A stretch of DNA of 64,000 nt. It comes from Rheinheimera nanhaiensis E407-8. GTDB lineage: Bacteria; Pseudomonadota; Gammaproteobacteria; Enterobacterales; Alteromonadaceae. Below are positions 27,307 to 46,342 of the stretch, piece after piece. The notes under the pieces were generated by a model, which worked only from the letters and a program-made list of their open reading frames with translations, ran no database searches and had not been told where the DNA came from. The number at the start of each line of letters is the position of its first letter. Positions within the stretch are counted from its first letter, which is position 1. The translations under genes were made by a program, and so were the position numbers. The stretch is taken from positions 62,001 through 126,000 of the forward strand of contig NZ_BAFK01000006.1 of NCBI RefSeq assembly GCF_000296695.1, written 5' to 3'.

Positions 27307-27307
27307 T

Positions 27308-28315: not shown

Positions 28316-28331
28316 CGGCATGCTTTATGCT
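28316..28331 (+). promoter_or_regulatory. Candidate sigma-54 promoter of the pse operon
   Basis: CGGCAT-GCTTT-ATGCT keeps the invariant GG and GC at the correct 10-base interval and matches 8 of 11 consensus positions. It lies 52 bases before the pseB ATG. The core GGCAT-N5-ATGCT is identical to that of the site at 53027-53042. Confidence 0.5.
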
Positions 28332-28373
28332 AAGGTCAGGCAAACCTTATTTCGCAGATTAAGTGCTTGTTGA

Positions 28374-30525
<2,152 letters not shown>

Positions 30526-30529
<4 letters not shown>

Positions 30530-31224
30530 ACATTGCTATTATCCCGGCCCGCGGCGGCAGTAAACGTATTCCACGTAAAAACATCAAAGATTTTTGCGGC
30601 AAGCCCATGCTGGCCTACCCGATAGATGCAGCCCTTAACAGCGGCGTGATAGACAAAGTGGTGGTGTCGACGGACGATGATGAAATTGCCGCTATCGCCC
30701 GTCAATACGGTGCGGAAGTGCCTTTTATCCGCAGCAGCACACTGGCCGATGATTACACCGGCACCAGCGCCGTTGTTCGCGATGCCATTACACAGCTGCA
30801 AGCGCTTGGCTGGCCGCTTAATTACTGCGCCTGTCTGTACGCCACCACGCCCTTATTAACCGCCAACGTGATCCGCGACAGCCTGCAGCAACTTGAGCAA
30901 AGTGGTGCAGATTATGTGTTTACCGCGGCGCGCTTTTCCTTTCCGATTCAGCGCGCCCTGGTAATGACAGACAGCGGCGGCGTGGCGCCGTTTGATCCGG
31001 CCAGCATAGGTAAACGCTCGCAGGATTTAACGCCAGCCTATCATGATGCCGGTCAACTGTATTGGGCTAAAGCCAACAGTTGGCTGGATAACAGCAAAAG
31101 CATTTTTGGCGCCAACTCGCGCATGCTGGTACTGCCTGATCACCTGGTACAGGATATTGACACCCCCGGAGACTGGCAGCGGGCAGAACTGCTATACAAC
31201 ATGCTGCAACAGGAAAATGCCTGA
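30526..31224 (+). CDS. pseF: PseF, CMP-pseudaminic acid synthetase
   Basis: Activates pseudaminic acid with CTP to give CMP-Pse. The 232-residue CMP-NeuAc synthetase-family protein has the CTP-binding IIPARGGSKRIPRKNIKDFC at the N-terminus, YATTPLLTA and, near the C-terminus, the DIDTPGDWQRAE metal-site region. Its ATG overlaps the pseC stop (ATGA). In this family, order within the pse operon and the PseF-like sequence favour Pse over neuraminic acid. Confidence 0.94.
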
Positions 31225-31225
31225 C

Positions 31226-32266: not shown

Positions 32267-33309
32267 CCATGAAATTGGGCAAACGGGCAGTAGGCCCAGG
32301 CGAACAGCCTTTTATCATCGCTGAGCTATCAGGCAACCATGACCAATCGCTGGAGAAAGCCTTGGCGATGGTCGATGCTGCTGCCGCTTGTGGCGCTGAT
32401 GCCATCAAAATACAAACCTACACTGCAGATAGCATGACGCTGGATATCAATAGCGGCGATTTTGTTATTCAGGACGCCGGTAATCTCTGGCAAGGCCAGT
32501 CGCTGTATCAGTTATATCAAAAAGCCATGACGCCCTGGGGTTGGCACCAGGCAATATTCGACCGCGCTGCAGCACATGGCATGCTGGCGTTTAGCACGCC
32601 CTTTGATCAGGCGGCGGTCGATTTTCTGGAAAGCTTACAGGTGCCCTGCTATAAAATTGCCTCATTTGAAAATAGCGACCATGGCTTACTGGCTGCGGTG
32701 GCTAAAACCGGCAAGCCGGTCATCATGTCAACCGGCATGGCAACACAGAGCGAACTGGCAGAGTCGGTTGAAGTGCTGCGACAACATGGCTGCACCAAGC
32801 TTATTTTACTCAAATGCACTTCGCATTATCCTGCCGATCCGATAGACGCCAACCTGGCGACCATACCCCACCTTGCGGCACTGTTTGGCTGTCAGGTGGG
32901 GTTATCTGACCATACTGCCGGCATAGGTGTCGCGGTGGCCAGTGTTGTGCTGGGCGCTACAGTGATTGAAAAGCACTTTGTGCTGGACAGAAGCGAAGGC
33001 GGTGTTGACGCCGAGTTTTCACTAGAGCCGGCTGAGTTTTCAGCCCTGATTACCGAGTGCAAGCGCGCAGCGGTTGCGCTTGGCAAAGTGACCTATGGCG
33101 GCACCGAAAAAGAACAGGCATCACGTAAGTACCGCCGCTCACTGTATATTGCGCAAGACATGCACGCCGGAGAGGTGTTTACTGTGGACAATCTGCGCTC
33201 GGTGCGCCCCGGTTTTGGCCTGGAGCCTAAATATCTGCCAATGTTGCTCGGTAAACCGATTAAAAAGGCGGCTAACAAAGGCACGCCAATGAGCTGGGAC
33301 TTTATTTAA
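32260..33309 (+). CDS. pseI: PseI, pseudaminic acid synthase
   Basis: Condenses the PseG product with phosphoenolpyruvate to form pseudaminic acid. The 349 residues include the NeuB TIM barrel (FIIAELSGNHDQSLEKALAM, KIASFENSD, KCTSHYPADP, GLSDHTAGIGVAVA, EKHFVLDR) and a C-terminal SAF/antifreeze-like domain (RSLYIAQDMHAGEVFTVDNL). ATG at 32260 overlaps the pseG stop, with GAGG four bases upstream; an alternative ATG lies nine bases later. NEU-type synthases are told apart from PseI by operon context here. Confidence 0.95.
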   Translation: MLTMKLGKRAVGPGEQPFIIAELSGNHDQSLEKALAMVDAAAACGADAIKIQTYTADSMTLDINSGDFVIQDAGNLWQGQSLYQLYQKAMTPWGWHQAIFDRAAAHGMLAFSTPFDQAAVDFLESLQVPCYKIASFENSDHGLLAAVAKTGKPVIMSTGMATQSELAESVEVLRQHGCTKLILLKCTSHYPADPIDANLATIPHLAALFGCQVGLSDHTAGIGVAVASVVLGATVIEKHFVLDRSEGGVDAEFSLEPAEFSALITECKRAAVALGKVTYGGTEKEQASRKYRRSLYIAQDMHAGEVFTVDNLRSVRPGFGLEPKYLPMLLGKPIKKAANKGTPMSWDFI

Positions 33310-33313
33310 CCCT

Positions 33314-33898
33314 ATGTCAGCAGCGAAACGCTATCCACTGTCTGAATTTAAGCCGCTCACAGCCGACTGGCTGGCGCTGGTGTGGCAGTGGCGCAACCTG
33401 CCAGACATTCGGCGTAATATGCACAATGATAGCCCGATTAGCTGGCAGCAACACCAGGCCTGGTTTGCAGCGCTACAGAACGATAAACAACGCAAAGTTT
33501 TTGTGTTTTTGCAGGATCAACGCCCTATCGGCGTACTGAACTTCACCTGGCATACCGACGGCAAGCTGGAATGGGGCTGTTATTTGGGTGAAACCAACGT
33601 TTGGCCCGGCTCTGGCTTATTACTGGAAATTGCTGCCCTGGATTACGCCGCCAGTCACACTGACTGCCCTGCCCTGCACGCCGAAGTGTTATCCTTTAAC
33701 CACAGCGTGGTTAAAATGCATCAGTTGTTTGGTTATCAGCCACTACCAGATAAGACCGGCAGCCTGCGTGATGGTCAACATTATAATGTTAAAGTATTTT
33801 CTTATGCGCTTGAGCAGTGGCGGCACAACCGCACAGCCATTTTGGCTCAGTTACCCAAGCAAATTGCCGCCGCGGCGCAACAGATCCATTTTTACTAA
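33314..33898 (+). CDS. pseH: PseH-like GNAT N-acyltransferase
   Basis: Predicted to acylate the 4-amino group of the PseC product, between the PseC and PseG steps. The 194-residue GNAT-fold protein has the family pattern RNLPDIRRNMHNDSPISWQQ, then HQAWFAAL, followed by the acyl-CoA binding region and VLSFNHSVVKMHQLFGYQ. PseH normally uses acetyl-CoA. With an acyl-carrier protein and ligase immediately downstream, a different acyl donor is possible here (inference). Confidence 0.85.
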   Translation: MSAAKRYPLSEFKPLTADWLALVWQWRNLPDIRRNMHNDSPISWQQHQAWFAALQNDKQRKVFVFLQDQRPIGVLNFTWHTDGKLEWGCYLGETNVWPGSGLLLEIAALDYAASHTDCPALHAEVLSFNHSVVKMHQLFGYQPLPDKTGSLRDGQHYNVKVFSYALEQWRHNRTAILAQLPKQIAAAAQQIHFY

Positions 33899-33912
33899 CA
33901 CCGGGTTTAACC

Positions 33913-34164
33913 ATGAACATAGAACAACAGATTAAAGACAGCCTTAGCCAAGTCGCTTTGCTCGCCAATTGTCAGCTGATTGCCGATATCAATAACGATA
34001 CCGTGTTGTTACAAAGCGGGCTGGACTCTTTGGGTTTTGCCATGCTGGTTGCCCAACTGGAGGAAGATCTGGGCATAGATCCGTTCAGTCAGATGCAAAT
34101 TGCCGTGTATCCACGCACCTTTGGTGAGTTTGTCGGCATTTATCAGCAAGCCCTGAAGGGGTAA
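33913..34164 (+). CDS. Acyl carrier protein
   Basis: An 83-residue stand-alone carrier protein. The phosphopantetheine Ser lies in the GLDSLGFAMLVAQLEEDLGI motif near residue 39. It starts at the ATG at 33913; the longer open frame runs into the preceding gene. It is followed eight bases later by an acyl-ligase, which probably loads it. It is not the housekeeping AcpP, given the divergent sequence and glycan context. Confidence 0.9.
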   Translation: MNIEQQIKDSLSQVALLANCQLIADINNDTVLLQSGLDSLGFAMLVAQLEEDLGIDPFSQMQIAVYPRTFGEFVGIYQQALKG

Positions 34165-34172
34165 CTGACGGT

Positions 34173-35474
34173 ATGACATTGCTGCAACGCCTGGAGCAGG
34201 CTAATTATCAAACCACAGCGATAATAGCTGGCTCAGGAAGCAGCTTCAGCCAGTTAGTTGCCAATGCCCGGCAACTTCGTCTTAAGAATCCGGCACTGCA
34301 ACATCAGGCAATCGCCCTGGTTTATACTGATTTATCAAGCTTTTGCGCTCAGCTCCTGGCATTTGATGGCTGGTGTGCGAAGCTGTATTTATTACCAGAC
34401 CCGGCACTGCTGCCTGACAATACCTGGGTGTTTTCTGGCCCCGCTGTTACCCCACCATCGCGGCCAGAAAACCACCCGTCAACCCCGGCAGACAGCGATA
34501 CCCAGTGGTTTATGGCCACATCTGGCACCACCGGCACACCCAAATGGATAAGCCATAGTGTTAATAGCTTAACTCGGGCAGTGAAAATCAACGCTGACAG
34601 CAAAACCCTGCGCTGGGCGCTATGCTACCAGCCCACTCGCTTTGCCGGGCTACAGGTTGTGCTGCAAAGCCTGCTGTCCGGTGCCGCACTGGCAGACTGT
34701 AGCAATGGCGATGCGGCTGAGCGCCTGGCTAAAATACAGCAGGCCAAGGTTAATGCGGTGTCAGCCACCCCGTCATTGTGGCGCCAGTTATTAATGGCCG
34801 GGGACATCCAAAGTCTGGCGCTGAAGCAAATTACCCTGGGCGGTGAAATTGCGGACCAGTCAATTCTCGATACCTTATCAAAGCTGTTTCCACATGCCAG
34901 GCTACTACATATTTACGCCTCTACTGAGGCAGGCGTTGGCTTTGCGGTCGCCGATAAAAAGGCCGGCTTTCCCGCCAGCTGGTTAACACAAGGTCATAGT
35001 GAGCTGGCATTTAAAATAGATAGCCAACAGCATTTGTGGCTAAAACCACCGCAACAGCCCGACAGCAAACTGGCCGCCAGGCTGGATAATAATGGCTTTC
35101 TCGACACCGAAGACTTAGTTGGCGTCACGGCAGAGCGGGTGTATTTTCTTGGCCGGGCCAGCGGGCTGATTAATGTCGGTGGCAATAAGGTGGTGCCGGA
35201 ACAGGTTGAGCAGGTATTGCTGCAACACCCTTGTGTTGTGCAGGCGCGGGTCTATGGCAAAAGCAGCAGCCTGTTAGGCCAACTGGTGGTAGCCGATGTG
35301 CAATTAACACAAGGCTGCGATAATAAAACACTAAAACTGCAGCTTATTCAGCATTGTATGGCATCTTTAGCACGCTATCAGGTGCCAACACAGCTAAACT
35401 TTGTCGACAACATGGCGACTAATGCCAGTGGCAAACTTAGCCGACAGCTAAAGGATAAAATACAGCATGACTAA
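34173..35474 (+). CDS. AMP-forming acyl-CoA/ACP ligase
   Basis: A 433-residue ANL-superfamily enzyme that adenylates a carboxylic acid and presumably transfers it to the adjacent carrier protein. Motifs in order: TSGTTGTPK (phosphate loop, about residue 116), LGGEI, YASTEAG (aromatic/substrate site), DTEDLV, FLGRASGLINVGGNKVVPEQ (hinge), and NASGKLSRQ with the catalytic Lys near the C-terminus. It is shorter than typical 500-550-residue ligases, with a reduced N-terminal domain, as in small glycan-cluster ligases. It overlaps the next gene by eight bases. Confidence 0.88.
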   Translation: MTLLQRLEQANYQTTAIIAGSGSSFSQLVANARQLRLKNPALQHQAIALVYTDLSSFCAQLLAFDGWCAKLYLLPDPALLPDNTWVFSGPAVTPPSRPENHPSTPADSDTQWFMATSGTTGTPKWISHSVNSLTRAVKINADSKTLRWALCYQPTRFAGLQVVLQSLLSGAALADCSNGDAAERLAKIQQAKVNAVSATPSLWRQLLMAGDIQSLALKQITLGGEIADQSILDTLSKLFPHARLLHIYASTEAGVGFAVADKKAGFPASWLTQGHSELAFKIDSQQHLWLKPPQQPDSKLAARLDNNGFLDTEDLVGVTAERVYFLGRASGLINVGGNKVVPEQVEQVLLQHPCVVQARVYGKSSSLLGQLVVADVQLTQGCDNKTLKLQLIQHCMASLARYQVPTQLNFVDNMATNASGKLSRQLKDKIQHD

Positions 35475-36192
35475 ATTAGTCGTCGTCACCGGCGCCAGCC
35501 GCGGTTTGGGCTTAGCCATTTGCCGGCAGCTACTTAGCGCAGGATATCAAGTAGTGGCACTGGCCAGAACCCAGAGCCCGGAACTTAGCGCGCTAGCGGC
35601 CCGGCATGCTACCGCGCTTAGCTTTGTCGCGGCGGATCTGTCAGATCTTGAGGCTATCGCGCCGCTTTGCACTGAGCTGGTTAAACAGCACGGCCGACCT
35701 TATGCGCTGATTAACAATGCTGCCGTCGGTTATGATGGTGTGCTGGCCACCATGCACAACAGTGAAATTAATACCCTGCTTAACCTGAACATTCAGGCAC
35801 CGATTTTGCTTTGTAAATATTTGCTCAGGCCCATGTTACTGAACCAAAGTGGCCGTATCGTCAATATTTCGTCGATTATCGCCCGCACCGGTTTTAACGG
35901 CTTAAGCGTATACGCCGCCAGCAAAGCCGCGCTGGAGGGGTTTAGTAAATCCCTGGCGCGCGAAGTGGGTAAAGCCGGCATCACGGTAAACTGCGTGGCG
36001 CCGGGTTATATGCAGACTGACATGACCAATAGTTTACAAGGCGAAAAACTGGAAAGTATTAAAAGGCGCAGCCCGCTGGGCCGGCTGGCAACGCCGGATG
36101 ATGCCGCCGGCGCTGTGCTGTATTTACTGAGCGAGCAAGCAAGTGCAGTTACCGGAACGACGATAACTGTCGATGCCGGTAGCACTGCTTAA
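35467..36192 (+). CDS. FabG-like SDR ketoreductase
   Basis: A 241-residue short-chain dehydrogenase with NAD(P) motif TGASRGLG at the N-terminus, NNAAVG, catalytic Ser in NISSIIA and YAASKAALEGF. It resembles 3-oxoacyl-ACP reductase FabG. Following an acyl carrier protein and an acyl-ligase, the simplest role is reducing a 3-oxoacyl-ACP to 3-hydroxyacyl-ACP, which would then be put on a sugar amine. A sugar-ketone reductase is the alternative. Confidence 0.88.
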   Translation: MTKLVVVTGASRGLGLAICRQLLSAGYQVVALARTQSPELSALAARHATALSFVAADLSDLEAIAPLCTELVKQHGRPYALINNAAVGYDGVLATMHNSEINTLLNLNIQAPILLCKYLLRPMLLNQSGRIVNISSIIARTGFNGLSVYAASKAALEGFSKSLAREVGKAGITVNCVAPGYMQTDMTNSLQGEKLESIKRRSPLGRLATPDDAAGAVLYLLSEQASAVTGTTITVDAGSTA

Positions 36193-36215: not shown

Positions 36216-36722
36216 ATGACATCCGCGGCATTAAATGGTAGTGGCAATAAACATGAACATCAGATCCCGCAGGTTGATCCCGAAACGACCTGGCAACATT
36301 TTATCACCAAGCGACAAATGTCATTATCAGGCTTGCAAGCTGACATTGCGGCAGAATTAGGTGTTGCGGAGCAGGAACAGGAACAGTTAACCGTGTTGCA
36401 AAACATTAGGCCTTTTTCCAGCGTACTGAGAAAAATAGAAAAGCGCTTTGCTATTACCGGTGATATTGCCGCCAAAACATTACCAGAATTGCATAACCTT
36501 GCACTAGAACAACAACTAAACGTTATGACAATTGCTGCCATAGCACTACAACAAGAATATGAGCAGCAGCGCGACCTCAACTCCCTTAACAGTACGATCA
36601 AAATGACTGACAAGATTTGCTATTTATTACCGTCAGTATCACCAACGGCAATATTAGCACAACGTATTCATCGACTAATAAAGCAGCAATTGCAGCTGCT
36701 GAGTAACTTACACCATGCTTGA
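36216..36722 (+). CDS. Hypothetical helical protein of the glycan island
   Basis: A 168-residue protein that I do not recognise. It has a good ribosome site (GAGGT) and overlaps the next gene by eight bases, so it is real and coupled. It is predicted to be mainly helical and rich in Gln, Leu and Ala (for example ELGVAEQEQEQLTVLQNIRP), with no signal peptide, membrane helix or metal motif. It could be a scaffold or accessory subunit of the neighbouring formyltransferase-like protein or ligase. No function is claimed. Confidence 0.7.
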   Translation: MTSAALNGSGNKHEHQIPQVDPETTWQHFITKRQMSLSGLQADIAAELGVAEQEQEQLTVLQNIRPFSSVLRKIEKRFAITGDIAAKTLPELHNLALEQQLNVMTIAAIALQQEYEQQRDLNSLNSTIKMTDKICYLLPSVSPTAILAQRIHRLIKQQLQLLSNLHHA

Positions 36723-37476
36723 ACGCCCGGGCTTTATCTTTTTTCCTGGCTGCCGTGCCAGCGCTTATCTGGATATTATGCAACAGCTAACCATGCCGCC
36801 AGCCTGTATTGTCTTAATGCAAAACCCGCTGGCAGAGCGTGGCATTCAGGCAGCATCCTCACATCCTCTAGTGCAGCGGTTTTATCAGCCTGATGCAGAT
36901 ATCGAAGCGTTTTGTCAGCAATATAATGTTCCGCTATATGTTAGCAGCGCGCAGAGTATCAATGATGCAGAATTAACCAAATTACTGCTCAGGCAAGGCT
37001 GCCGCCACTGGTTATTCAGCGGTGGTGGTATAGTGCAGCCCAAAGTATTAGCGACGGGTTTGAAGTTTTTGCATGTGCATCCTGGGCAAATGCCTGAAGT
37101 AAGGGGAAGTACTTGTTTTTACTACTCTTTGCTTCATGATTTAACGCTTGCTGCAAGCGCATTTTTTCTCGAAGCAGAACTCGATGCTGGCCCAAGCATA
37201 CTGTGCCGGCATTTTCACATCAATATACCACCTGCGTTACTGTCTTCCGATTTTATTGATTATATCGTCGACCCCTATATTCGTGCCGAAACCCTCAAGC
37301 CATTGTGGCAACATTGGCCGGATATATCAGATGTTAGTAAGGTAGCAAAGCTAAGTACACCGCCGTCGGACCGGCCTTGCTATGTAATGCACCCGGTTCT
37401 CAGAGCAATGGCGATACAACGTGTTGCTGCCAGCTATAACGCCAGTAATGAAACAGGAGTATTTCATTATGCCTAA
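36715..37476 (+). CDS. Formyltransferase-fold protein
   Basis: A 253-residue protein related to the methionyl-tRNA/sugar N-formyltransferase family. Support is the motif LHVHPGQMPEVRGSTCFYYS near residue 121, matching the family pattern HPG-x-LP-x-RG with the catalytic His, and the preceding strand HWLFSGGGIVQPKVL. The N-terminal folate site is not clear. It could N-formylate an amino sugar, for example a pseudaminic acid derivative. The stop lies inside the start of the next gene (ATGCCTAA). Confidence 0.7.
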   Translation: MLERPGFIFFPGCRASAYLDIMQQLTMPPACIVLMQNPLAERGIQAASSHPLVQRFYQPDADIEAFCQQYNVPLYVSSAQSINDAELTKLLLRQGCRHWLFSGGGIVQPKVLATGLKFLHVHPGQMPEVRGSTCFYYSLLHDLTLAASAFFLEAELDAGPSILCRHFHINIPPALLSSDFIDYIVDPYIRAETLKPLWQHWPDISDVSKVAKLSTPPSDRPCYVMHPVLRAMAIQRVAASYNASNETGVFHYA

Positions 37477-38035
37477 CACGCCAACGGGTCATGTCATTTG
37501 GCTGACAGGTCTGTCAGGTGCCGGTAAAAGTACTATAGCGCAGCAGTTGGTAAAGCTTTATCGTGCGGCGTCAATTAATCCAATCTTACTGGATGGGGAT
37601 GCCGTGCGCGCAGCAATCAATGACCCCAACTGGGGATTTGATACCGACAGCCGACGCCGTGGTTCATACATTTATGCCAGGCTGGCTGCAATGTTATCAG
37701 GCCAGGGCCATTTAGTTATTGTTCCTACTATCAGTATGTTTCATGAAGTCCGCCACTGGAACCGCCAGCATATTGCGGGCTATTTTGAAGTGTATTTACG
37801 CGTGTCGCAGCATGTAAGGCAGCAGCGTGATCCGAAAGCGTTATATCGTCAACATCAGTCAGGTAGTAACCACAATATGGCCGGGCTGGATTTAACATAT
37901 GAAGAGCCTGACAACCCTGATTTAATTATCGACAACAATGGCGATAAGAGCGACATAGCACAGATTGCGCAGACCATATACACACAGTTTCATCAACGCT
38001 TTACAGGCACCGCAAACCAGGAGCGCCCCGAATGA
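37469..38035 (+). CDS. CysC-like kinase, likely cytidine diphosphoramidate kinase
   Basis: A 188-residue APS-kinase-fold protein. I start at the ATG at 37469, with AGGAG upstream; the open frame from 37421 is too long. Walker A GLSGAGKST is at residues 14-22, followed by LLDGDAVR and RDPKALYRQ, the family equivalents of CysC substrate motifs. No sulfate-assimilation gene is nearby. It heads four coupled genes whose families match C. jejuni Cj1415-Cj1418. There Cj1415 phosphorylates the 3'-OH of cytidine diphosphoramidate. Function is assigned by family plus context. Confidence 0.82.
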   Translation: MPNTPTGHVIWLTGLSGAGKSTIAQQLVKLYRAASINPILLDGDAVRAAINDPNWGFDTDSRRRGSYIYARLAAMLSGQGHLVIVPTISMFHEVRHWNRQHIAGYFEVYLRVSQHVRQQRDPKALYRQHQSGSNHNMAGLDLTYEEPDNPDLIIDNNGDKSDIAQIAQTIYTQFHQRFTGTANQERPE

Positions 38036-40356
38036 CCGTGGCAAATTATGTCAGTTTAACTAAAGCCGACACTCTGGCCAGCCTGGCCGGCCGGCTAAAG
38101 CATGCCAGTATATTGCCGCAGATTACGTTTACATTCACACAATGGCAGCATGATTCTGAACAGCTGATTACTGATATTTTAACTCAGTTCCAACAGCCGG
38201 TAGCGGTACGTTCCAGTGCGAAAAATGAAGATACAACCACGCAAAGTAACGCCGGTAAGTACAGCTCTGTACTAAACGTTGCAACAGAAGCCATAGCGTT
38301 ACAGCAAGCTATTGCACAGGTATTTAACTCCTATGATGGCGCACAAGCTGATGATCAGGTTTTTATTCAGCCCATGATATCTGACGCCGACTATGCCGGC
38401 GTTGCCTTTAGCCATGATGCCAGCACCGGCGCACCTTATTATGTTATCAGCACCGATTTAACAGGCGATACGCAAACCGTGACCGCTGGCGTCGATGCCC
38501 AAACACAAACCTGGTATATTCGCCACGATAGCAAACCTGAACAACTATGGCTGGCTCAGCTGGTTGACTTACTGCAGGAACTGGCATTGCTATACCCGGC
38601 GCAAGCATTAGATCTGGAATTTGTCTTTCGCAGCAACCAGCTGATATTACTGCAATTACGCCCACTGATTATCAACAATACACTTGATTTTGAAGCGACA
38701 CAGTACCAAACAGAATTGCATTGTATTGACAAAAAGTTGCATCGTTTAACTCAGCGCCATCCCTATCTGCTGGGCGAGCAAACCTGTTTTGGCGTGATGC
38801 CGGATTGGAATCCTGCAGAAATCATTGGCATGAAGCCAAGGCCTTTAGCACTGTCCTTGTATAAAGAGCTTATTACTGATGCTATATGGGCCACACAACG
38901 CTGTAATTATGGCTACCGGGATGTTCGCGACCATGCTTTATTAATTGTGCTTGGTGGTACACCCTATATTGATATTCGGGTAAGTTTTAATTCGTTTATT
39001 CCGGCCAGCCTTGACACCGCTTTAGCGGAAAAACTGGTTAACTTCTATCTGAATAAATTAAAGCAAGCACCACAATTGCACGACAAGGTTGAGTTCGCTA
39101 TCGTTGCGTCGTGCTTCGCATTTGACTTAGATGACAAACTTACGGAACTTGCCGCACATAATTTCAGTAACAAGGAATGCCAACAAATCCGTTCAGCCCT
39201 AATCGACCTGACAAAAAATATCATTGCCGACAACCAAGGCGTTTTTGCTAAGGACATTGCCAGCATTACCCAACTTGAGCATCGGCAAAAGCAATTAATA
39301 GCCTCAGATTTGAATAAACTGGATAAAATTTACTGGCTAATTCAGGATTGCAAACGCTACGGTACCCTTCCATTTGCCGGCTTAGCCCGGGCAGGCTTTA
39401 TTGCTATGCAACTTTTAGCATCGCTGAAATACAAGCGGCTGTTAACGGACGATAACTATCAGGCATTCTTACGGGATGTGCGTACCGTTAGCTCGTCGCT
39501 GGTACATGACAAACAGCACCTGCCGGCGTCGGAGTTTTTCGCGCAATATGGCCATTTACGACCCGGCACTTACGAAATCACGTCATATCGCTATGATGAG
39601 CAACCTGAGAAATATTTTGCCATCGCTGACGATAGTAAAGCTGATAGCGGAGCGTCAGCGGGCTTTAGCTTGTCGCTGCAACAACTGAACGCGATTAATC
39701 AGGTGCTGGCCGATGCTAAGATGGATCTCGATGCTGTTGCCTTGTTTAACTTCATTAAGCAAGCCATCGAAGCGCGTGAGTATAGCAAGTTTGTATTTAC
39801 TCGTAGTTTAAGTGATGCCCTGGTTCTGATCGAGCAATTAGGCCAGCAAGTTGGCTTTAGCCGTGAGCAACTGGCATTTGCCGATATCAAAGATATCTTG
39901 CGCCTGCACTCGACGACACATAGCGCCGCAGCAACGTTGCAAAGCTCAATTGCGCTTGGGCAAAACTACTACCGCTTGTGTCAAAGTATCAAGCTACCGG
40001 CCCTGATCAGCAGCACCCATCAAGCCCGGTATTTTGCTTTGCTGGCTGATGAGCCCAATTTTATTACCACAAAACGGGTGTCTGCAGCCTGCACCAGCGC
40101 CAACCAAAGCGGCAATCTGGCAGGCAAAATCGTCTTTATTGAAGCCGCTGATCCCGGCTACGACTGGTTGTTTTCGCATGGCATTGCCGGCCTGGTAACG
40201 CAGTACGGCGGCTGCAATTCGCATATGGCGATCAGAGCGCAGGAGCTTGGCATTCCGGCAATCATAGGAGCAGGCGAACTACTTTATAATAAATGGCGTA
40301 CGGCCAAGTGGTTAACCATTGATTGCGCAAGTAAAAAAGTAGAGCCCGGCCAATGA
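38032..40356 (+). CDS. PEP-synthase-like protein, likely L-glutamine kinase
   Basis: A 774-residue protein with the PEP-synthase/PPDK layout minus the PEP-binding barrel. An N-terminal ATP-grasp domain contains VRSSAKNEDTTTQSNAGKYSS, a long middle domain follows, and a C-terminal phospho-histidine swivel domain has TQYGGCNSHMAIRAQELGIP with the catalytic His near residue 730. C. jejuni Cj1418 has this layout and phosphorylates the amide nitrogen of L-glutamine using ATP, starting phosphoramidate synthesis. Start and stop overlap its neighbours by four bases each (ATGA), indicating coupling with the other three pathway genes. Confidence 0.85.
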   Translation: MTVANYVSLTKADTLASLAGRLKHASILPQITFTFTQWQHDSEQLITDILTQFQQPVAVRSSAKNEDTTTQSNAGKYSSVLNVATEAIALQQAIAQVFNSYDGAQADDQVFIQPMISDADYAGVAFSHDASTGAPYYVISTDLTGDTQTVTAGVDAQTQTWYIRHDSKPEQLWLAQLVDLLQELALLYPAQALDLEFVFRSNQLILLQLRPLIINNTLDFEATQYQTELHCIDKKLHRLTQRHPYLLGEQTCFGVMPDWNPAEIIGMKPRPLALSLYKELITDAIWATQRCNYGYRDVRDHALLIVLGGTPYIDIRVSFNSFIPASLDTALAEKLVNFYLNKLKQAPQLHDKVEFAIVASCFAFDLDDKLTELAAHNFSNKECQQIRSALIDLTKNIIADNQGVFAKDIASITQLEHRQKQLIASDLNKLDKIYWLIQDCKRYGTLPFAGLARAGFIAMQLLASLKYKRLLTDDNYQAFLRDVRTVSSSLVHDKQHLPASEFFAQYGHLRPGTYEITSYRYDEQPEKYFAIADDSKADSGASAGFSLSLQQLNAINQVLADAKMDLDAVALFNFIKQAIEAREYSKFVFTRSLSDALVLIEQLGQQVGFSREQLAFADIKDILRLHSTTHSAAATLQSSIALGQNYYRLCQSIKLPALISSTHQARYFALLADEPNFITTKRVSAACTSANQSGNLAGKIVFIEAADPGYDWLFSHGIAGLVTQYGGCNSHMAIRAQELGIPAIIGAGELLYNKWRTAKWLTIDCASKKVEPGQ

Positions 40357-40952
40357 TCAGGCTTGGAATAACGCAACGAGTCGATATTCATCCTGTGTAT
40401 CACGAACGGCGCGATGCACTGGACCAAAGATGGCAGTTGCTGGCGGATGCGGCAAATGTTGAGCTGCTACGTTTGCCAAATAATGCCGCTGCCGCCCTGT
40501 CATTGTTAAAAGCGATACCGGTTCAGGGGCTGATATTCAGTGGTGGCAATACACTTACCAGTCTGGGCGGCGATGCTCCTGAACGCGACGAGACAGAACA
40601 AGCTTTACTTACGTTGGCAATGAAACAACACATGCCTGTACTTGGCGTGTGCCGTGGTATGCAGTTTATACAACACTATTTTGGCCAGACACTCATTCCG
40701 GTGACAGGCCATGTCAGCCAACAGATTACCATCTCTGCCGGCTCTGAGATTCGCCAGGTTAACAGTTATCATCAATGGGGCAGCTATAACTGTCCTGCTC
40801 CGCTTATCGTCACTGCAAAAGCTGCCGATGGCGTGGTTAAAGCCTGTCGCCATGACACGCTTCCGCTATTTGGTATTATGTGGCATCCAGAGCGAATGTC
40901 CGCTTTTGATCCGCGCGATCTACAGTTAATTAAAGGATTCAGTCAAAAATGA
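40353..40952 (+). CDS. Class I glutamine amidotransferase-like, likely gamma-glutamyl-CDP-amidate hydrolase
   Basis: A 199-residue peptidase C26-type amidohydrolase. The nucleophile Cys is near residue 99 in LGVCRGMQFIQHYFG, and the catalytic His/Glu pair is in MWHPER near residue 177. C. jejuni Cj1417 of this family cleaves gamma-glutamyl-CDP-amidate to glutamate and cytidine diphosphoramidate. Free gamma-glutamyl-compound hydrolysis (PuuD-like) is the alternative, but the flanking genes favour the phosphoramidate role. Confidence 0.85.
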   Translation: MIRLGITQRVDIHPVYHERRDALDQRWQLLADAANVELLRLPNNAAAALSLLKAIPVQGLIFSGGNTLTSLGGDAPERDETEQALLTLAMKQHMPVLGVCRGMQFIQHYFGQTLIPVTGHVSQQITISAGSEIRQVNSYHQWGSYNCPAPLIVTAKAADGVVKACRHDTLPLFGIMWHPERMSAFDPRDLQLIKGFSQK

Positions 40953-41695
40953 GAGCGCTTATTCTCGCCGCCGGTATGGGCACCCGGTTGCGCCCGCACA
41001 CTAACGACAAGCCTAAAGCGCTGGTACCGCTAAACAATAAGCCGCTGCTGGATTATCAATTATCGGTTTTACGTCATGCAGGGATCCGCGATATCAGCCT
41101 GTTAACCGGCTATCTGGCAGCATGTTTTGCACCTTACCGTCTATCGACCATACACAACCCGGATTATGCTAACACCAATATGGTGTGGTCCCTGTTTAAA
41201 GCCAGACAACTGTTTGATAGTAAAACAGACTTGCTGGTTTGTTATGGCGATATTGCCTACAACGATGCGGTATTGTCAGCAGTGTTACAACAAACCGGCC
41301 CGGTGGTCATCGCTGCCGACAGGCAATGGCAATCGCTGTGGCAACTCAGAATGGAAGATGTACTGGCTGACGCAGAAACCTTTAAAATGGCACCTGGAAG
41401 CCATAAAGTCGTTAACCTGGGGCAAAAAATTACCGATTTGAACCAGGTACAGGCCCAGTATATCGGCCTGATTAAATTCCGGGCCGCCAGCCATCAGCAG
41501 GTCCTTAGTTTGTATGATCAATTACCTGAATCACAACAGCGGAAAATGTATATGACTGATTTTATTCAGCATCTTATTAACTGCGACATAGAAGTCAACG
41601 CTGCTTTGCATAATGGCGGCTGGCTGGAGGTCGATACCACTACAGACTTAACTATCTATAGCTCGCACGCTAGGCAGATCCTCAGGCAGCCATAA
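40949..41695 (+). CDS. Nucleotidyltransferase, likely CTP:phosphoglutamine cytidylyltransferase
   Basis: A 248-residue NTP-transferase-fold protein with LAAGMGTRLRP at residues 6-16, KPKALVP, and acceptor-site acids in LLVCYGDIAYND. C. jejuni Cj1416, of this family, joins CTP and L-glutamine phosphate to give gamma-glutamyl-CDP-amidate. It is the last of the four coupled genes. No sugar-phosphate pathway next to it calls for another nucleotidyltransferase. Together with the three preceding genes it completes the route to 3'-phospho-cytidine diphosphoramidate. Confidence 0.84.
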   Translation: MRALILAAGMGTRLRPHTNDKPKALVPLNNKPLLDYQLSVLRHAGIRDISLLTGYLAACFAPYRLSTIHNPDYANTNMVWSLFKARQLFDSKTDLLVCYGDIAYNDAVLSAVLQQTGPVVIAADRQWQSLWQLRMEDVLADAETFKMAPGSHKVVNLGQKITDLNQVQAQYIGLIKFRAASHQQVLSLYDQLPESQQRKMYMTDFIQHLINCDIEVNAALHNGGWLEVDTTTDLTIYSSHARQILRQP

Positions 41696-41766: not shown

Positions 41767-42504
41767 TTGGAGAACAATAATAACGACGCGCTGCAACGCA
41801 TCAACCGGGTATTATTTGCCGACGGTGATTCACAATCCCAATACGATATGCATTGCCAACTGCTGCAGACAAAAAGTTATGTAAACTACTTTTCGCTTGC
41901 AAGCGGTACACAGAGCATCTATCGCCATCCTAAACTGCACATTGCCCCTGACGAACAGATTATCTCAATCAACCCTCATCTGGGTGGTCCATTGAAATTC
42001 TTTAAACAACAGGCAAACAGTGCATGCCAAATTCATGTTTTTGAAGAGCGCAACCATCAATTTGCTAACCTTTGCAGGAACATTGCTTTATGGCGTATCC
42101 AGGATGGCATCACCCCGGTTTGTGCCGCTGCATGGTCAGCCTCTGGTCTTCACACTACTAAACACGATGGCCATAGTGGCATCGTATATGTACCTCAGAT
42201 AGTTTCTGTTCAGCAGTGTCCTGCCGACGAGATTGGTGCGGTCCATCAAGCATACCGGTTAGATGACTATCTTGCCACGCAACGATTCCACCCAACGTTA
42301 ATCGAATGTGGTCGGCCTGGTATAGCCAGCCACATTATTCGTGGTGCCGAGCACACGATAAAGTCAACTAAACCAAAACTATTGCTAGTAGACTCGCCCT
42401 GGGCCGATTGGTTAGGTCTGGTGAAACAATGGGTACCTGAATACCAGGTTTATTACCACGAGGCTGGCAGACGAAAAGCCGCAGCATTTTTGCTGACCCT
42501 TTAA
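41767..42504 (+). CDS. FkbM-like protein with degenerate SAM motif (copy 1)
   Basis: A 245-residue protein starting with TTG at 41767, chosen because AGGAG lies seven bases upstream. The fold pattern is that of FkbM-type methyltransferases: ISINPHLGGPLKFF in the motif I position, YRLDDYL, a strand where FkbM proteins have IDVEGAE but here reads TLIECGRPGIASHIIRGAEH, and C-terminal PEYQVYYHEAGR. The glycine-rich SAM loop and the acidic residue after it are changed, so normal methyl transfer is doubtful. It is clearly paralogous to the next gene. A role in capping or transferring the phosphoramidate made by the genes upstream is possible but unsupported by motif. Confidence 0.65.
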   Translation: MENNNNDALQRINRVLFADGDSQSQYDMHCQLLQTKSYVNYFSLASGTQSIYRHPKLHIAPDEQIISINPHLGGPLKFFKQQANSACQIHVFEERNHQFANLCRNIALWRIQDGITPVCAAAWSASGLHTTKHDGHSGIVYVPQIVSVQQCPADEIGAVHQAYRLDDYLATQRFHPTLIECGRPGIASHIIRGAEHTIKSTKPKLLLVDSPWADWLGLVKQWVPEYQVYYHEAGRRKAAAFLLTL

Positions 42505-42524
42505 CATGCGCAAGTGCAGAGGCA

Positions 42525-43577
42525 TTGATGGAATCACAACAATTTATCGCAAAGCTGCAGCAACTCCCTATTAGTCCCATTCCTTATGTAAACCTTGAGC
42601 AATGTAACAAACTAAACATTGTCATTGTTGGCACGCCGGAACTGGTGGTAGCCTGCACTAGCGAGCTGGAGCAACAGCAAGCAAATGTGTTAATGACACT
42701 AGTGCATAACAATAGTAGTGATACTTTAGCACTGGAAGCGACGCTGGCCGGAATATCAATACACGACCTTGATATATTGGTACTTGCAAGTTCACATAAT
42801 CTGTTACTTATTGAAGCCTTAGCGCGTTTTAGAGCAAAACTTGCCTTGTACCAGGCAAAAGATGCCAGATCCGATCACGCTAACATCGCATTGCTTGCTG
42901 ACGATATCTCTAAACGAGTTATGCAGCAACAGTTTGATATGCTTCAACAAAATTTTTATTTTGACGGCTTTTCTGTAGAAGCTGGTGAGCAATACACCCA
43001 CCCGGTAGTTCATGCAATGCCTGGAGAAAAAATTCTTTGTATCGGGCCTTATCTCGGAAACCCGTTTAAATTTTTTGCCAAAACCAGCGCAGGCGACTTT
43101 ACCGCACATACGTTAGAGGCTAACCCCTACACTTACGCTGAATTGTGCAGCAACCTGGTAAGTTGGGGGCTGCACAAGCAGGTTCGCCCCGTTTGTGCCG
43201 GAGCCTGGTCAAGTACCGGAATGGTGGCCTTTGCCAGCGAGGGGCATACCGGCGGAGGTAATGTGCTTGAGCTGACGGCGGATAAAACCGTTAAACCTGG
43301 CGATATCGATATGGCTATTTTCACCTATGCTGTTGATGACTATGTAGCAGAAACGGGTTTTATACCAACCTTAATTGAAAGTGGCAGGATTGGCATTGCG
43401 ACCGAAGTGATAAAAGGGGCAAGACAAACTATTATCGAGTACAAGCCAAAATTGATTTTGCTGGATTATCCGGATAGTGATTCCGTACGGTTAATCAACG
43501 CTTGGGTGCCTGAATACAAAATTTACTATAGCGAGTGCGGCAGGCAACGTTATGGCGTTTTCTTTCTGACACTTTAA
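42525..43577 (+). CDS. FkbM-like protein with degenerate SAM motif (copy 2)
   Basis: A 350-residue paralogue of the preceding gene, with an extra N-terminal domain of about 120 residues (NIVIVGTPELVVACTSELEQ, a Rossmann-like start, then LDILVLASSHNLLLIEALAR). The C-terminal part aligns closely with copy 1: LCIGPYLGNPFKFF, VDDYVAETGFIPTLIESGRI, GIATEVIKGARQTI, and PEYKIYYSECGRQRYGVFFL. The SAM-binding loop is again non-canonical. It is the last gene of the plus-strand island, before a convergent operon. Function unknown; it may form a heteromer with copy 1. Confidence 0.65.
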   Translation: MMESQQFIAKLQQLPISPIPYVNLEQCNKLNIVIVGTPELVVACTSELEQQQANVLMTLVHNNSSDTLALEATLAGISIHDLDILVLASSHNLLLIEALARFRAKLALYQAKDARSDHANIALLADDISKRVMQQQFDMLQQNFYFDGFSVEAGEQYTHPVVHAMPGEKILCIGPYLGNPFKFFAKTSAGDFTAHTLEANPYTYAELCSNLVSWGLHKQVRPVCAGAWSSTGMVAFASEGHTGGGNVLELTADKTVKPGDIDMAIFTYAVDDYVAETGFIPTLIESGRIGIATEVIKGARQTIIEYKPKLILLDYPDSDSVRLINAWVPEYKIYYSECGRQRYGVFFLTL

Positions 43578-43603
43578 GCGACGGATGAATAAAAACCTGG
43601 TTA

Positions 43604-43646
43604 ACGTGCTGACGGTGTAACAGCTAGTATTTGCCTGTCAGCACGT
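43604..43646. terminator. Hairpin between convergent operons
   Basis: A perfect 10-bp stem, ACGTGCTGAC / GTCAGCACGT, with a 23-base loop, in the 74-base gap between convergent genes. It lacks a clear U-tract, so termination is likely but not certain. Confidence 0.45.
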
Positions 43647-43651
43647 ACCTT

Positions 43652-44434
43652 CTAGACCCGGCGTAAAAAACCATCGGGAGCAACAGTGATTAGCAGCTTC
43701 GACTCAATAGTTTTATCGATAACAAATTCCGGATGCTGTTTCAAAAACGCATGCACCGCCGTTTTCGGATTATAACCCGGCCCCCATGGACGGTCAGGAA
43801 ACATGTCAGCCGGCATATCTTCCACCACGGTATCGTACACAATACAGTAGCTGCCACTACTGACTAATGGACTATATGCAGCCAGTTCGGCAAGCACATG
43901 TTCATGTGTATGATTAGAGTCAAGGCACACCAGCACGCGCTGATAACCGGCTGCCGCCTGTTTAACCTGATCTACTAAAGCCGGATCAATACTGGAGCCT
44001 TGAAACATCTGAATCATGTGTGACATCGGGTGGGCTTCAATAGCCTGGCGATTGTGTACGCGAATGTCGATATCGATACCGATAACTTTTCGTTTTGACT
44101 GCAGCGGATCCAAGGCTTCGCCATTGCTCACAGCATCAGCATAATCCAGTAACGCCAGTAAAGAAGCACTAAGGATAAGCGAACCACCATGCGCTATGCC
44201 GGTTTCAATTATCAGATCCGGTTTTACCCGCCAAACCAGCTCTTGCAGTGCAATCATATCCTGCGGCACCTGAATAATTGGTCTGCCTAACCAATTGAAG
44301 TTGTAGCTGTATTTACAGGGCGCGGAATCAACGATAAATTGATTTGCCAATTGCTTAAGATGAGCGTTTTCACCCAGCTTACTAATATTGTCCGCAACCT
44401 CTTGCTGGAACGCCAGGTTTGCATCATTTTTCAT
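43652..44434 (-). CDS. CmcI/cephalosporin hydroxylase-family methyltransferase
   Basis: A 260-residue protein of the CmcI family, a class I SAM-dependent fold. Motif I is IIETGIAHGGSLILSASLL, then VIGIDIDIR, VLVCLDSNHTHEHVLAELAA (metal/substrate His pair) and YCIVYDTVVEDMP. In glycan clusters CmcI proteins are thought to O-methylate sugars; CmcI itself is linked to cephamycin methoxylation. It is the last gene of the ten-gene minus-strand operon, eight bases after the TylF-like gene. Substrate unknown. Confidence 0.82.
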   Translation of the reverse strand: MKNDANLAFQQEVADNISKLGENAHLKQLANQFIVDSAPCKYSYNFNWLGRPIIQVPQDMIALQELVWRVKPDLIIETGIAHGGSLILSASLLALLDYADAVSNGEALDPLQSKRKVIGIDIDIRVHNRQAIEAHPMSHMIQMFQGSSIDPALVDQVKQAAAGYQRVLVCLDSNHTHEHVLAELAAYSPLVSSGSYCIVYDTVVEDMPADMFPDRPWGPGYNPKTAVHAFLKQHPEFVIDKTIESKLLITVAPDGFLRRV

Positions 44435-44442
44435 TCTTCACC

Positions 44443-45207
44443 TCACAAAATGGCATACGACAAAGATGGCGTATAAGGTACGCGCTGGATACGAATATTA
44501 TTAATTCCAACTTCTTCAAGTACAGCAAGCGTCTCTCCGGGCCATTGCTTTTGATTTAATTCATCAAATGCTATAACAGCCCCTTTGGGCATCCGTGGTA
44601 AAAAGTGCTTTAACGCTGCCTTAGTAGGCTCGTACAAATCGAAATCCAGATATAGCAGGGCTACTACCAGATGTTTATTGTCTGCCATATATTGAGGAAT
44701 GGTCTGCAGCGCATCTCCCTTAACCAACTCCATCTTGCTGATATGGCCCAGCGGCCGGTTTAAATCAAACAGACCGATGTTTTTTTCCAGCTCAGCCATA
44801 TGCTCAAAGCGGTAAGACCCCTGTACCTTATGTTCTGTTTCAGCACCCGTGTTCTGATCTTGCTCCCCTAGCGCCGGAAAACCATCAAACGAATCGAAGC
44901 CAATCACTTTACGGCCATGGTTTATCGGTTCATAAATTGCGCTTAATTGTGCCCAGGTAAATAAACCGCCCCCCATAAAAACACCACACTCAACGATGTT
45001 GCCATGTATAGGCAATATATGCTGAAAAATCTCGTTTTTTGCCAAAAACAAACTTAGACTTTGTCTGGAGGTAAAACGGGAAAAATTCTGCAATTTGTCA
45101 ACAACAGTGCCACTGGCCTGAGCAAAAAATTGTTCCATTTGCTGTTTATACAACGTGTCATTCGACGTTTGTGTACTTTGGTTTACCAGCGAAAATTGCT
45201 CAGTCAT
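44443..45207 (-). CDS. TylF/MycF-family O-methyltransferase
   Basis: A 254-residue macrocin-O-methyltransferase-like enzyme. Motifs: IVECGVFMGGGLFTWAQL (SAM loop), KVIGFDSFDGFP, and the metal-binding LLYLDFDLYEPTKAALKHFL with KGAVIAFDELNQKQWPGE. Members methylate sugar hydroxyls in macrolides and surface glycans. It follows the acyltransferase gene by 19 bases, so it probably modifies the same sugar as the upstream genes produce. Confidence 0.88.
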   Translation of the reverse strand: MTEQFSLVNQSTQTSNDTLYKQQMEQFFAQASGTVVDKLQNFSRFTSRQSLSLFLAKNEIFQHILPIHGNIVECGVFMGGGLFTWAQLSAIYEPINHGRKVIGFDSFDGFPALGEQDQNTGAETEHKVQGSYRFEHMAELEKNIGLFDLNRPLGHISKMELVKGDALQTIPQYMADNKHLVVALLYLDFDLYEPTKAALKHFLPRMPKGAVIAFDELNQKQWPGETLAVLEEVGINNIRIQRVPYTPSLSYAIL

Positions 45208-45226: not shown

Positions 45227-46342
45227 TTATCTTGCTTTAATCTGCTGTGAATAATTTATCTTCACCACGCTATCAGCGGCTACATTTCCAACGATGACGG
45301 CACCAGAGGAAATAACACAGTTATCACCTATACATACGTCAGGTTCAACCACAATACCAGCGGCAAAACGAACGCCATTGCCAACAACTACATTGCCAGA
45401 TGTAGCAACTGCCGGGCCAAAAGCACAATGACTGCCAACTTTATTACCATGCTCTATGTGTATGCCTGCAGTGAGAAAATTGTTATTACCAATTTCCGTG
45501 CATGGACCAATATAGACATTAGCCAGTATGATATTGCCTACACCTAAAATAACGTGATTTCGAAGTTCGGCACTGGGGTCGATCACGTTGGCAAAAGGTA
45601 TGCCTTTTGCCTGCAACTGGTTAAACAATTCTGCGCGTTGCGCCAAATCGCGGTTAAACCCTATTACAACCTTATCTATAATCCCGTCATGCAAATACTG
45701 CTCCAGTAAATCATCTGCAGCACCAACAACCGGCACGCCTAAAATGCTCTGCCCGATGAAAGCCGGGTTCTGGTCAAATACAGCAACCGCCTGCTGTTGC
45801 GGCTGACGTAAAATGGCGTCAATAATAATCATGGCCCCGCCACCGGACACCCCACCGATAATACCTATGCGCTCCTGTGGTAAAAAGCCCATACGGCGTG
45901 GCTCGCTGGTCTGGTGGGCCAGTACAGATAACACATCCTGCTCCTGTACTTTTTTTCCTAAACGGTTAGCTAACGCATCGATGTCAACATTATGCCGCTG
46001 AGCCAGCATTGCAGCCTTTTTTGTATAACGAGCTGTGTTACCGGCGCTGAGCCCGGTCTGCGGCTCAGTAATAGCTTGCAGCCATGCCGTATGATAATCA
46101 GTTAATTCTGTATCACTAACGATGGCCAACACCTGATCAACCGCAACATCGGTATCAGCTGCGATTTCCGTATAAAAATAACCGGCGCTATCTGCTTCAA
46201 CCTCAAATAAGGTCTTAGTGGTTTCCAGCTGACACAGCACTTCAGCAGATTCGACGCGTGCCCCGGCTTCTATGTGCCAACGCAACAATCGGGCAGACTT
46301 ATCATTAACGCCCAGAAATGGCGCTTTAATCAGCTTAATCAC
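45227..46342 (-). CDS. Lipoyl-PSBD-NeuD-like acyltransferase fusion
   Basis: A 371-residue chimera. Residues 1-80 form a lipoyl domain, with the expected lipoyl Lys at 43 in QLETTKTLFEVEAD. Residues about 103-141 resemble the peripheral subunit-binding domain of E2 proteins (ARYTKKAAMLAQRHNVDIDA, QEQDVL). From residue 157 it is NeuD/PglD-like: RIGIIGGVSGGGAMIIIDAI, then a left-handed beta-helix acyltransferase (NHVILGVGNIILANVYIGPC, HIEHGN with a candidate catalytic His). It thus looks like an E2 whose catalytic CAT domain is replaced by a sugar acyltransferase. It directly follows E1-alpha and E1-beta genes. I infer acyl transfer from dihydrolipoamide to a sugar amine. Confidence 0.87.
   Translation of the reverse strand: MIKLIKAPFLGVNDKSARLLRWHIEAGARVESAEVLCQLETTKTLFEVEADSAGYFYTEIAADTDVAVDQVLAIVSDTELTDYHTAWLQAITEPQTGLSAGNTARYTKKAAMLAQRHNVDIDALANRLGKKVQEQDVLSVLAHQTSEPRRMGFLPQERIGIIGGVSGGGAMIIIDAILRQPQQQAVAVFDQNPAFIGQSILGVPVVGAADDLLEQYLHDGIIDKVVIGFNRDLAQRAELFNQLQAKGIPFANVIDPSAELRNHVILGVGNIILANVYIGPCTEIGNNNFLTAGIHIEHGNKVGSHCAFGPAVATSGNVVVGNGVRFAAGIVVEPDVCIGDNCVISSGAVIVGNVAADSVVKINYSQQIKAR

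Follow-up and report, generated by a model that had tools for sequence, protein, structure and literature searches.

The closest described counterpart of the genes examined here is the O-methyl phosphoramidate pathway of Campylobacter jejuni, in which Cj1415-Cj1418 make cytidine diphosphate (CDP)-phosphoramidate 3'-phosphate from glutamine, ATP, and CTP (according to the accessible text of PMC11800397) and Cj1421/Cj1422 are the transferases. In the available portions of two reviews the glutamine kinase is called C. jejuni-specific (PMC9561416) and the modification is said to have been identified so far only in Campylobacter (PMC6429109). A phosphoramidate without the O-methyl group is reported in the lipopolysaccharide (LPS) of Xanthomonas campestris and Shewanella MR-4 (accessible text of PMC3907429), so the group is already known on a surface glycan outside Campylobacter, although on LPS and not on flagellin. 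Here we describe a 64,000-nucleotide stretch of contig NZ_BAFK01000006.1 from Rheinheimera nanhaiensis E407-8 (the window), in which four coupled genes of the same four enzyme families occupy positions 37469..41695 of a flagellar glycosylation island. A Campylobacter-type gene set in such company points to a flagellar decoration that is so far undescribed. We consider it probable that a phosphoramidate biosynthesis module has been built into a flagellin-glycosylation island, and we predict phosphoramidate on the flagellin.

RESULTS

The Quartet and Its Families

The four genes lie on the plus strand and, by reading of the open reading frames (ORFs), neighbors share 4-base overlaps, as the initial annotation had it. 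The first (37469..38035, with its ATG at 37469 within an ORF of 37421-38035) encodes a CysC-like kinase, a predicted cytidine-diphosphoramidate 3'-kinase of the Cj1415 type. It is followed by an L-glutamine-kinase-type relative of phosphoenolpyruvate (PEP) synthase (GlnK, Cj1418-type; 38032..40356), a class I amidotransferase (GATase; 40353..40952) that is predicted to be a Cj1417-type gamma-glutamyl-CDP-amidate hydrolase, and a nucleoside triphosphate (NTP) transferase (NTPT; 40949..41695), the putative phosphoglutamine cytidylyltransferase (Cj1416-type). The order GlnK-GATase-NTPT equals the numbering Cj1418-1417-1416 in C. jejuni, where the orientation of the genes is what we take it to be.

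Hidden Markov model (HMM) searches bore out the four general families. GlnK scores 952.8 bits on NF004508/PRK05849 (cut-off 501), compared with 31 bits for the genome's own PEP synthase, which is encoded elsewhere, and in an alignment with four relatives NSHMAI is the phospho-His motif. The CysC-like kinase matches APS_kinase (PF01583, 120.9 bits) and exceeds the cut-off of the PRK05541 subfamily model NF004041 (169.6 versus 127 bits) while falling below that of the ApsK model TIGR00455 (131.9 versus 138.7 bits). Its identity to the genome's separate adenosine 5'-phosphosulfate (APS) kinase (L001) is 33.8% (83.6 bits), as against 42-72% to the seven best other CysCs from modules of this kind and a median of 128 bits over the 57 module CysCs, itself counted in; by these scores it groups with the module CysCs, apart from the genome's own APS kinase.

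The GATase matches Peptidase_C26/GATase in Pfam, and its best NCBIfam match by far is NF045546, gamma-glutamyl-CDP-amidate hydrolase (125.8 bits). All 58 of 58 module GATases match this model at E ≤ 1e-20, as no other NCBIfam family does, and Cys100, His178, and Glu180 are invariant across the 58 aligned sequences. The NTPT matches the general families NTP_transf_3 (PF12804) and NTP_transferase (PF00483) and no specific family. The motifs GLSGAGKS, GVCRGMQ, NSHMAI, and GMGTRLRP, named beforehand as catalytic, could all be read in the window ORFs. By HMM the assignment to the specific Cj1415-Cj1418 families held for GlnK and the CysC-like kinase; the GATase stays under the equivalog cut-off, and the NTPT shows its general family. 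Set against the genome's own APS kinase and PEP synthase and against the NCBIfam models, the CysC-like kinase, GlnK, and the GATase did not go with APS kinases, PEP synthases, or PuuD-type hydrolases, respectively.

A Pseudaminic Acid Run Enclosed by Flagellar Genes

The quartet forms the end of a run of 15 plus-strand genes (28383-41695), with no more than roughly two dozen bases between neighbors. The run begins with pseB, pseC, pseF, pseG, pseI, and pseH (28383..33898), which overlap or abut and encode a complete pseudaminic acid pathway, as had been claimed; every product exceeds its curated NCBIfam equivalog cut-off (score/cut-off in bits: PseB 550.7/407.75, PseC 559/423.5, PseF 314.2/205.7, PseG 308.2/153.55, PseI 496.3/340.25, and PseH 134.9/93.1). 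Then follow genes for an acyl carrier protein (ACP), an AMP-dependent acyl ligase, and a 3-oxoacyl-ACP-reductase-like short-chain dehydrogenase/reductase (33817..36192; PF00550, PF00501/PF13193, and PF13561/PF00106), whose products probably synthesize or load an acyl substituent destined for the nonulosonic acid, and finally two genes starting at 36216 and 36715, treated below, directly ahead of the quartet.

Flagellar genes stand on both sides. The left flank (17652..28343, minus strand) encodes a flagellar-type ATPase, FliG, FliF, sigma-54 activators of the FlrC (response regulator) and FlrA/FleQ types, an FlrB-type histidine kinase, and a flagellin-domain protein (PF18269, PF01706, PF01514, PF00158/PF00072, PF06490, PF02518/PF00512, and PF00669/PF00700). 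At the right end is a Maf-type flagellin nonulosonic acid transferase (61483..63948, minus strand; PF20157 282.3 bits and PF01973 103.8 bits), whose gene continues past the window and, read in the genome, stays open for 954 aa. Farther right Pfam finds FliS, FliD, FlaG, a Flagellin_N protein encoded where flgL would be expected, and FlgK. Four flagellin genes, ∼3.0-6.8 kb past the window end, separate FlaG from this flgL-position gene, and after FlgK come flgJ, flgI, flgH, flgG, and flgF, named by reading alone. No capsule-export or polysaccharide-initiating (lipid-carrier) family was found among the island ORFs scanned with Pfam, some small ORFs being outside the scan. A capsule locus is ruled out for the window by the flagellar genes on both sides, and the flagellar setting given in the initial annotation is upheld.

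Recurrence of the Module beside Flagellins

A scan of genome contigs gave at least 588 pattern matches and at least 547 confirmed GlnK-family stretches, some of them perhaps the same gene. We analyzed the best 80 loci of these at least 547 stretches, a selection that favors query-like loci; they span many phyla. Flagellins and GlnK were then located in 50 whole genomes from the best 80 loci, picked mainly for long contigs, the flagellin positions being those among the matches listed, with weaker copies outside the list. In 20 of the 50 genomes GlnK shared a contig with a listed flagellin no more than 30 kb away, whereas the fraction of each genome that lies near listed flagellins predicts 1.31 (P 3e-20, assuming independence); the distance was within 15 kb in 10 genomes (0.67 expected). 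The carriers with a flagellin nearby include Pseudomonas, Chitinibacter, Zoogloea, a Rhodocyclaceae bacterium, Rheinheimera, Alteromonas, Pseudoalteromonas, Paraglaciecola, Clostridium guangxiense, and Lachnospiraceae-type genomes. As a control in the same 50 genomes, none of 125 sites of the polysaccharide-initiating transferase PF02397 fell within 30 kb of a listed flagellin. GlnK was near a PF02397 site in three genomes, and KpsC/S-type capsule genes (PF05159) were present in three, in none of them near GlnK; judged by PF02397 and PF05159, a capsule setting is rare around GlnK in this set.

In four loci (L043, L044, L046, and L060) an FlgK-family gene and a flagellin-domain gene, taken as flgL, are directly followed by GlnK, the Pfam scan behind this row having covered L043. 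In L053 the gene ahead of GlnK, a likely flgL, encodes a 416-aa protein of the family gathered by the same iterated search. The ORF calls of L049 did not resolve the row, and the Pseudomonas loci L096, L098, and L100 do not show it. The iterated HMM searches merged several families into one group, and we relied on profile comparisons instead.

A Formyltransferase-fold Gene in Place of a Methyltransferase

Overlooked in the initial annotation were two genes in the same overlapping run just before the quartet: one at 36715..37476 (plus strand), in the position where most modules have a methyltransferase, and a small one at 36216..36722 (plus strand), whose product has no Pfam or NCBIfam match at 1e-3. 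Both belong with the phosphoramidate module. A model and two structure comparisons assign the 36715 product (FT) a formyltransferase fold. Its His-x-His (H120, H122) is found in all 14 aligned sequences, and Asp157 is kept. We take the catalytic pattern of E. coli Fmt to be Asn-x-His plus Asp; the Asn position is His in FT, so that FT need not act on formyl groups. A small protein of the 36216 type or of the family f19 accompanies FT in 14 of 16 loci (the two families match by profile at prob. 82.6 and are probably related); it is fused to FT in L118, was counted for G023 through the adjoining L117, and was not seen in L049 and L075.

We scored FT and MT4, a family of S-adenosylmethionine-dependent methyltransferases, by running HMMs over six-frame translations of the DNA up to 9 kb from GlnK. 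Over 91 GlnK loci, MT4 occurred in 59 and FT in 16, the window included, with no locus having both and 16 having neither (Fisher P 2e-9 for exclusion, kinship ignored); 11 of the 16 loci with neither have less than 6 kb of sequence on at least one side of GlnK. The 56 loci with full context gave the same picture (MT4 41, FT 10, both 0, neither 5). The window itself has no MT4-family match at 1e-10 within this distance, and methyltransferases of other families are present in the island. The GlnK tree requires no fewer than 8 changes of the MT4/FT state, against a minimum of 11 and a mean of 14.9 in 200 shuffles, and a single Pseudomonas-type clade has MT4 in L053 and L060 and FT in L043, L044, L046, and L049. 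An independent-pairs test of MT4 against FT was not significant (median p 0.5), with too few pairs.

We infer O-methylation of the phosphoramidate by MT4 and a different completion by FT, N-formylation being the simplest guess. With FT in place of the usual MT4, the window probably makes a phosphoramidate finished otherwise than the O-methyl form of Campylobacter. Cj1419 and Cj1420 of C. jejuni have no assigned role in the accessible text of PMC11800397, and the MT4/FT exchange offers a direct way into those finishing steps that lack an assignment. A broader and tentative idea, which we regard as possible but less likely than not, is that phosphoramidate is no peculiarity of the Campylobacter capsule but a widespread, unrecognized flagellar decoration with two swappable forms, O-methyl and an FT plus small-partner form (e.g. 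N-formyl).

Co-occurrence, Fusions, and Distribution

Among the 91 GlnK loci the NTPT family was found in 80 and GATase in 78; 57 had a stand-alone CysC from the same cluster as the window protein, a count in which several loci end at contig ends or have divergent CysCs. The partners are also joined to the kinase. CysC is fused to GlnK in nine loci (L048, L067, L069, L081, L089, L090, L091, L093, and L125), an NTPT-type domain in L118, L126, L127, and, weakly, L130, and GATase in L132. CysC, NTPT, and GATase are therefore each a domain of the kinase protein somewhere. The CysC-GlnK fusions measure 963-1060 aa with CysC N-terminal, and most of them stem from Acidobacteria-type bins and from bins of peat or permafrost. 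The GlnK-GATase fusion, of 1011 aa (652-3687 of MT837632.1), was the sole match of a phage search and lies in a 9.5-kb human-faeces record filed as "Bacteriophage sp." that looks like a bacterial contig, its neighbors reading as Firmicutes housekeeping genes.

In an even draw of Gammaproteobacteria, GlnK was over the cut-off in 9 of 369 genomes (the window's own counted); it was found in 5 of 98 relatives, in 3 of 31 genomes of the genus, and, in a genus search around one Pseudomonas, in 2 of 18 with the query included. Maf was present in 20 of 20 same-genus genomes examined, whereas GlnK was in 3 of 31, so that the module varies from genome to genome on a flagellar glycosylation base that stays constant. 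GlnK was also matched at 1e-30 in 14 plasmid records (H1-H14), all with <60% identity and four of them predicted conjugative, from hosts such as Azospirillum, Vibrio, Cupriavidus, and Agrobacterium.

Proposed Pathway and Candidate Transferases

By homology to Cj1415-Cj1418 we propose the following steps. Each reaction is a prediction, and so are the acceptor and the occurrence of phosphoramidate on flagellin. The order is the one that the reactions are said to have in C. jejuni. The 38032 kinase would phosphorylate the amide nitrogen of glutamine, the 40949 NTP-transferase would form the CDP adduct, the 40353 amidotransferase would remove glutamate to leave CDP-phosphoramidate, and the CysC-like kinase of 37469 would add the 3'-phosphate. 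A transferase, probably the product of 53059 or 60026, would move the phosphoramidate to a sugar of a pseudaminic-acid-based glycan, which Maf would attach to flagellin in the cytoplasm. The 36715 FT and its 36216 partner would replace the usual methyltransferase, so that the finishing chemistry is probably not that of O-methyl phosphoramidate. The "complete" pathway of the initial annotation holds as far as the activated donor; the usual methyltransferase is absent, and the sugar transferase is a candidate only.

The predicted donor resembles CDP-alditols and, through its 3'-phosphate, 3'-phosphoadenosine 5'-phosphosulfate. The window's candidate phosphoramidate transferases, chosen by association, are the gene at 53059..54870 (minus strand), which encodes a 603-aa remote relative of CDP-alditol phosphotransferases, and the Glyphos_transf gene at 60026-61474 (PF04464, 105.3 bits). 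The former protein has no Pfam match but matches by profile two module-adjacent families, f131 (prob. 98.7) and f129 (prob. 98.95), of which the f131 member in L120 passes PF04464 and the f129 member in L118 does not; its predicted structure is of low confidence (mean pLDDT 48.7) and was not used. Across modules the Glyphos_transf-like group comprises the window's 53059 gene, f131 beside cysC in L120, f129 beside cysC in L118, f129 after NTPT on the opposite strand in L054, and a 619-aa gene after NTPT in L101. Other loci have a Sulfotransfer_3-like group, consisting of f12 (41 bits in L048) with f30, which is below its cut-off, and f59, which has no match, both joined to f12 by profile comparison.

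Alternative Readings and Contrary Evidence

The alternative that survives best, and that we nonetheless think unlikely, is that the phosphoramidate is made but placed on LPS or another surface glycan, the flagellar neighborhood being a landing place only. The unmethylated phosphoramidate in the LPS of Xanthomonas campestris and Shewanella, cited in the accessible text of PMC3907429, offers a precedent; the CDP-hexose genes at 45227-52943 could serve O-antigen; and most carriers beyond the 50 genomes, together with 30 of the 50 at 30 kb, were not found to be flagellar. This alternative has to contend with a quartet placed in one overlapping run with the whole Pse pathway, in an island that is enclosed by flagellar genes and Maf and has, among its scanned ORFs, no family for capsule export or polysaccharide initiation. 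It also sits poorly with the flagellin-side recurrence in unrelated bacteria, set against the empty PF02397 control, and with the few KpsC/S-type genes, none of them by GlnK.

Placement on flagellin, the reading that we prefer, has several observations weighing against it, some of which bear on the setting and some on the families. The enrichment beside flagellins carries no kinship correction, and its rows are partly kin, L043, L044, and L046 being almost the same. The GlnK tree requires no fewer than 10 switches of setting, against a minimum of 12 and a mean of 17.6 in 200 shuffles, so flagellar recruitment was repeated yet is not free of ancestry. Outside the 50 genomes, a listed flagellin was near GlnK in 3 of 13 (the window's own, G023, and G066), and in G030, of the same genus, GlnK is 121 kb from flagellin. 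None of the eight other GlnK carriers of the even draw had a listed flagellin within 30 kb, three of them having no flagellin at all and the other five having one of two flagellins listed; flagellar placement is therefore a minority use. The best 80 loci include no Campylobacter, and the likeness to Cj1415-Cj1418 is one by family models. The model NF004508 is titled just "hypothetical protein," and we presume that Cj1418 is a member of it. The window GATase misses the NF045546 equivalog cut-off (125.8 versus 250 bits), and 0 of 58 module GATases reach 1e-70 on that model. For a studied relative, S. oneidensis, the accessible text of PMC3765264 gives flagellin glycan formulas without phosphorus.

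The same uneven family matches would suit a second alternative, which we hold to be quite improbable, namely that the four proteins serve another pathway, making a different N-phosphorylated or CDP-activated molecule, with the CysC homologue acting on another substrate. The GATase under its curated cut-off and the NTPT without a specific family are what this would lead one to expect, and in L132 the GlnK-GATase fusion stands among apparent Firmicutes housekeeping genes, where a surface sugar is not obvious. The four families, however, co-occur and fuse in various pairs, the module GATases match no model other than that for the gamma-glutamyl-CDP-amidate hydrolase at 1e-20, and GlnK is far over its cut-off. 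A chance cluster of ordinary genes of sulfur and carbon metabolism (APS kinase, PEP synthase, and PuuD), which the Pfam names alone would fit, is extremely improbable and is ruled out by the genome's own APS kinase and PEP synthase, separate and far apart in score, while the quartet recurs across phyla.

Other Genes of the Island

Downstream of the quartet, at 41767..45207, are two FkbM-like genes on the plus strand (the first by likeness only; 42525-43577 has a weak TIGR01444 match of 22.2 bits, under the cut-off), followed by CmcI- (PF04989, 327 bits) and TylF-type (PF05711, 47.6 bits) methyltransferase genes on the minus strand. The CDP-hexose branch (45227..52943, minus strand) encodes glucose-1-phosphate cytidylyltransferase and CDP-glucose 4,6-dehydratase (TIGR02623 470.1 and TIGR02622 466.6 bits, both over their cut-offs), an epimerase, a C-methyltransferase, an aminotransferase, thiamine pyrophosphate (TPP)-dependent E1 alpha/beta proteins, and a lipoyl/hexapeptide protein (further matches PF00908, PF08484, PF02779, and PF00364/PF00132). 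The TPP-dependent E1 alpha/beta genes and the gene whose product combines a lipoyl domain with hexapeptide repeats (45227-48239) thus lie inside the sugar island, where they are likely to form an acyl-transfer or carboligation branch for a CDP-sugar.

Between 56312 and 61474, on mixed strands, lie a glycerol-3-phosphate cytidylyltransferase-like gene (TIGR01518, 95.9 bits; cut-off 165.4), an asparagine-synthase-type gene (PF00733), a family 2 glycosyltransferase gene (PF00535), and the Glyphos_transf gene already described. With a glycerol-3-phosphate cytidylyltransferase-like gene and a teichoic-acid-type phosphotransferase gene in one flagellar island, the glycan may also carry an alditol phosphate. 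This pair recurs in L035, L037, and L084. The left border of the island, at 27387-28343, is a short, lone flagellin-domain protein (Flagellin_N plus Flagellin_C), set apart from the four flagellins on the right; tblastn found genes similar to it in L045, L061, L101, and L112.

DISCUSSION

The observation made in the initial annotation is confirmed as to gene content, order, families, and island setting, and its interpretation is partly supported: it is of the right kind, the reactions and the acceptor being predictions. Its view that phosphoramidate on a flagellin glycan is undescribed agrees with the literature that we searched, from which subscription journals were mostly absent: among the matching papers, of which a minority was consulted, we found no report of phosphoramidate on flagellin or of the module in flagellin islands. 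None of the sources consulted describes flagellin phosphoramidate in its accessible text (PMC9561416, PMC6429109, PMC3907429, PMC2674064, PMC10450907, PMC7099621, PMC11800397, PMC3546167, and PMC3765264), and in the available part of a paper on the C. botulinum island phosphoramidate appears only in a reference title, with no genes described.

The Campylobacter-only view of the reviews contrasts with at least 547 kinase stretches, the best 80 loci of which come from many phyla and in fair proportion lie beside flagellins. Phosphoramidates on flagella, if they are there, would alter the picture of flagellin glycans. Phages of C. jejuni read the capsular group (accessible part of PMC9561416), and, if the prediction is true, phosphoramidate would be a likely target or shield for flagellum-binding phages. 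Harmless carriers, such as Rheinheimera faecalis, Chitinibacter tainanensis, and Paraglaciecola algarum, would also offer organisms for studying the biosynthesis of the P-N bond.

Among flagellar systems, the Campylobacter pse/Maf, Shewanella sfm, and Clostridium flagellar glycosylation islands share with the window the Pse pathway, Maf, a flagellar position, and accessory methyltransferases; they differ in that no phosphoramidate module is described for them in the accessible texts of PMC3765264, PMC2674064, PMC13317340, and PMC4875605. The flagellin glycan of C. difficile 630 contains a phosphorylated N-methyl-L-threonine and so has phosphorus, as predicted here, with no P-N pathway mentioned in the part of PMC4441256 that is available. 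Compared with the C. jejuni pathway, the window has the same four enzyme families in a flagellar island and not in a capsule locus, with an FT gene present, the usual methyltransferase absent, and a GATase under the cut-off. What is new here is a known type of pathway in a flagellar setting, with a different finishing gene, and recurring.

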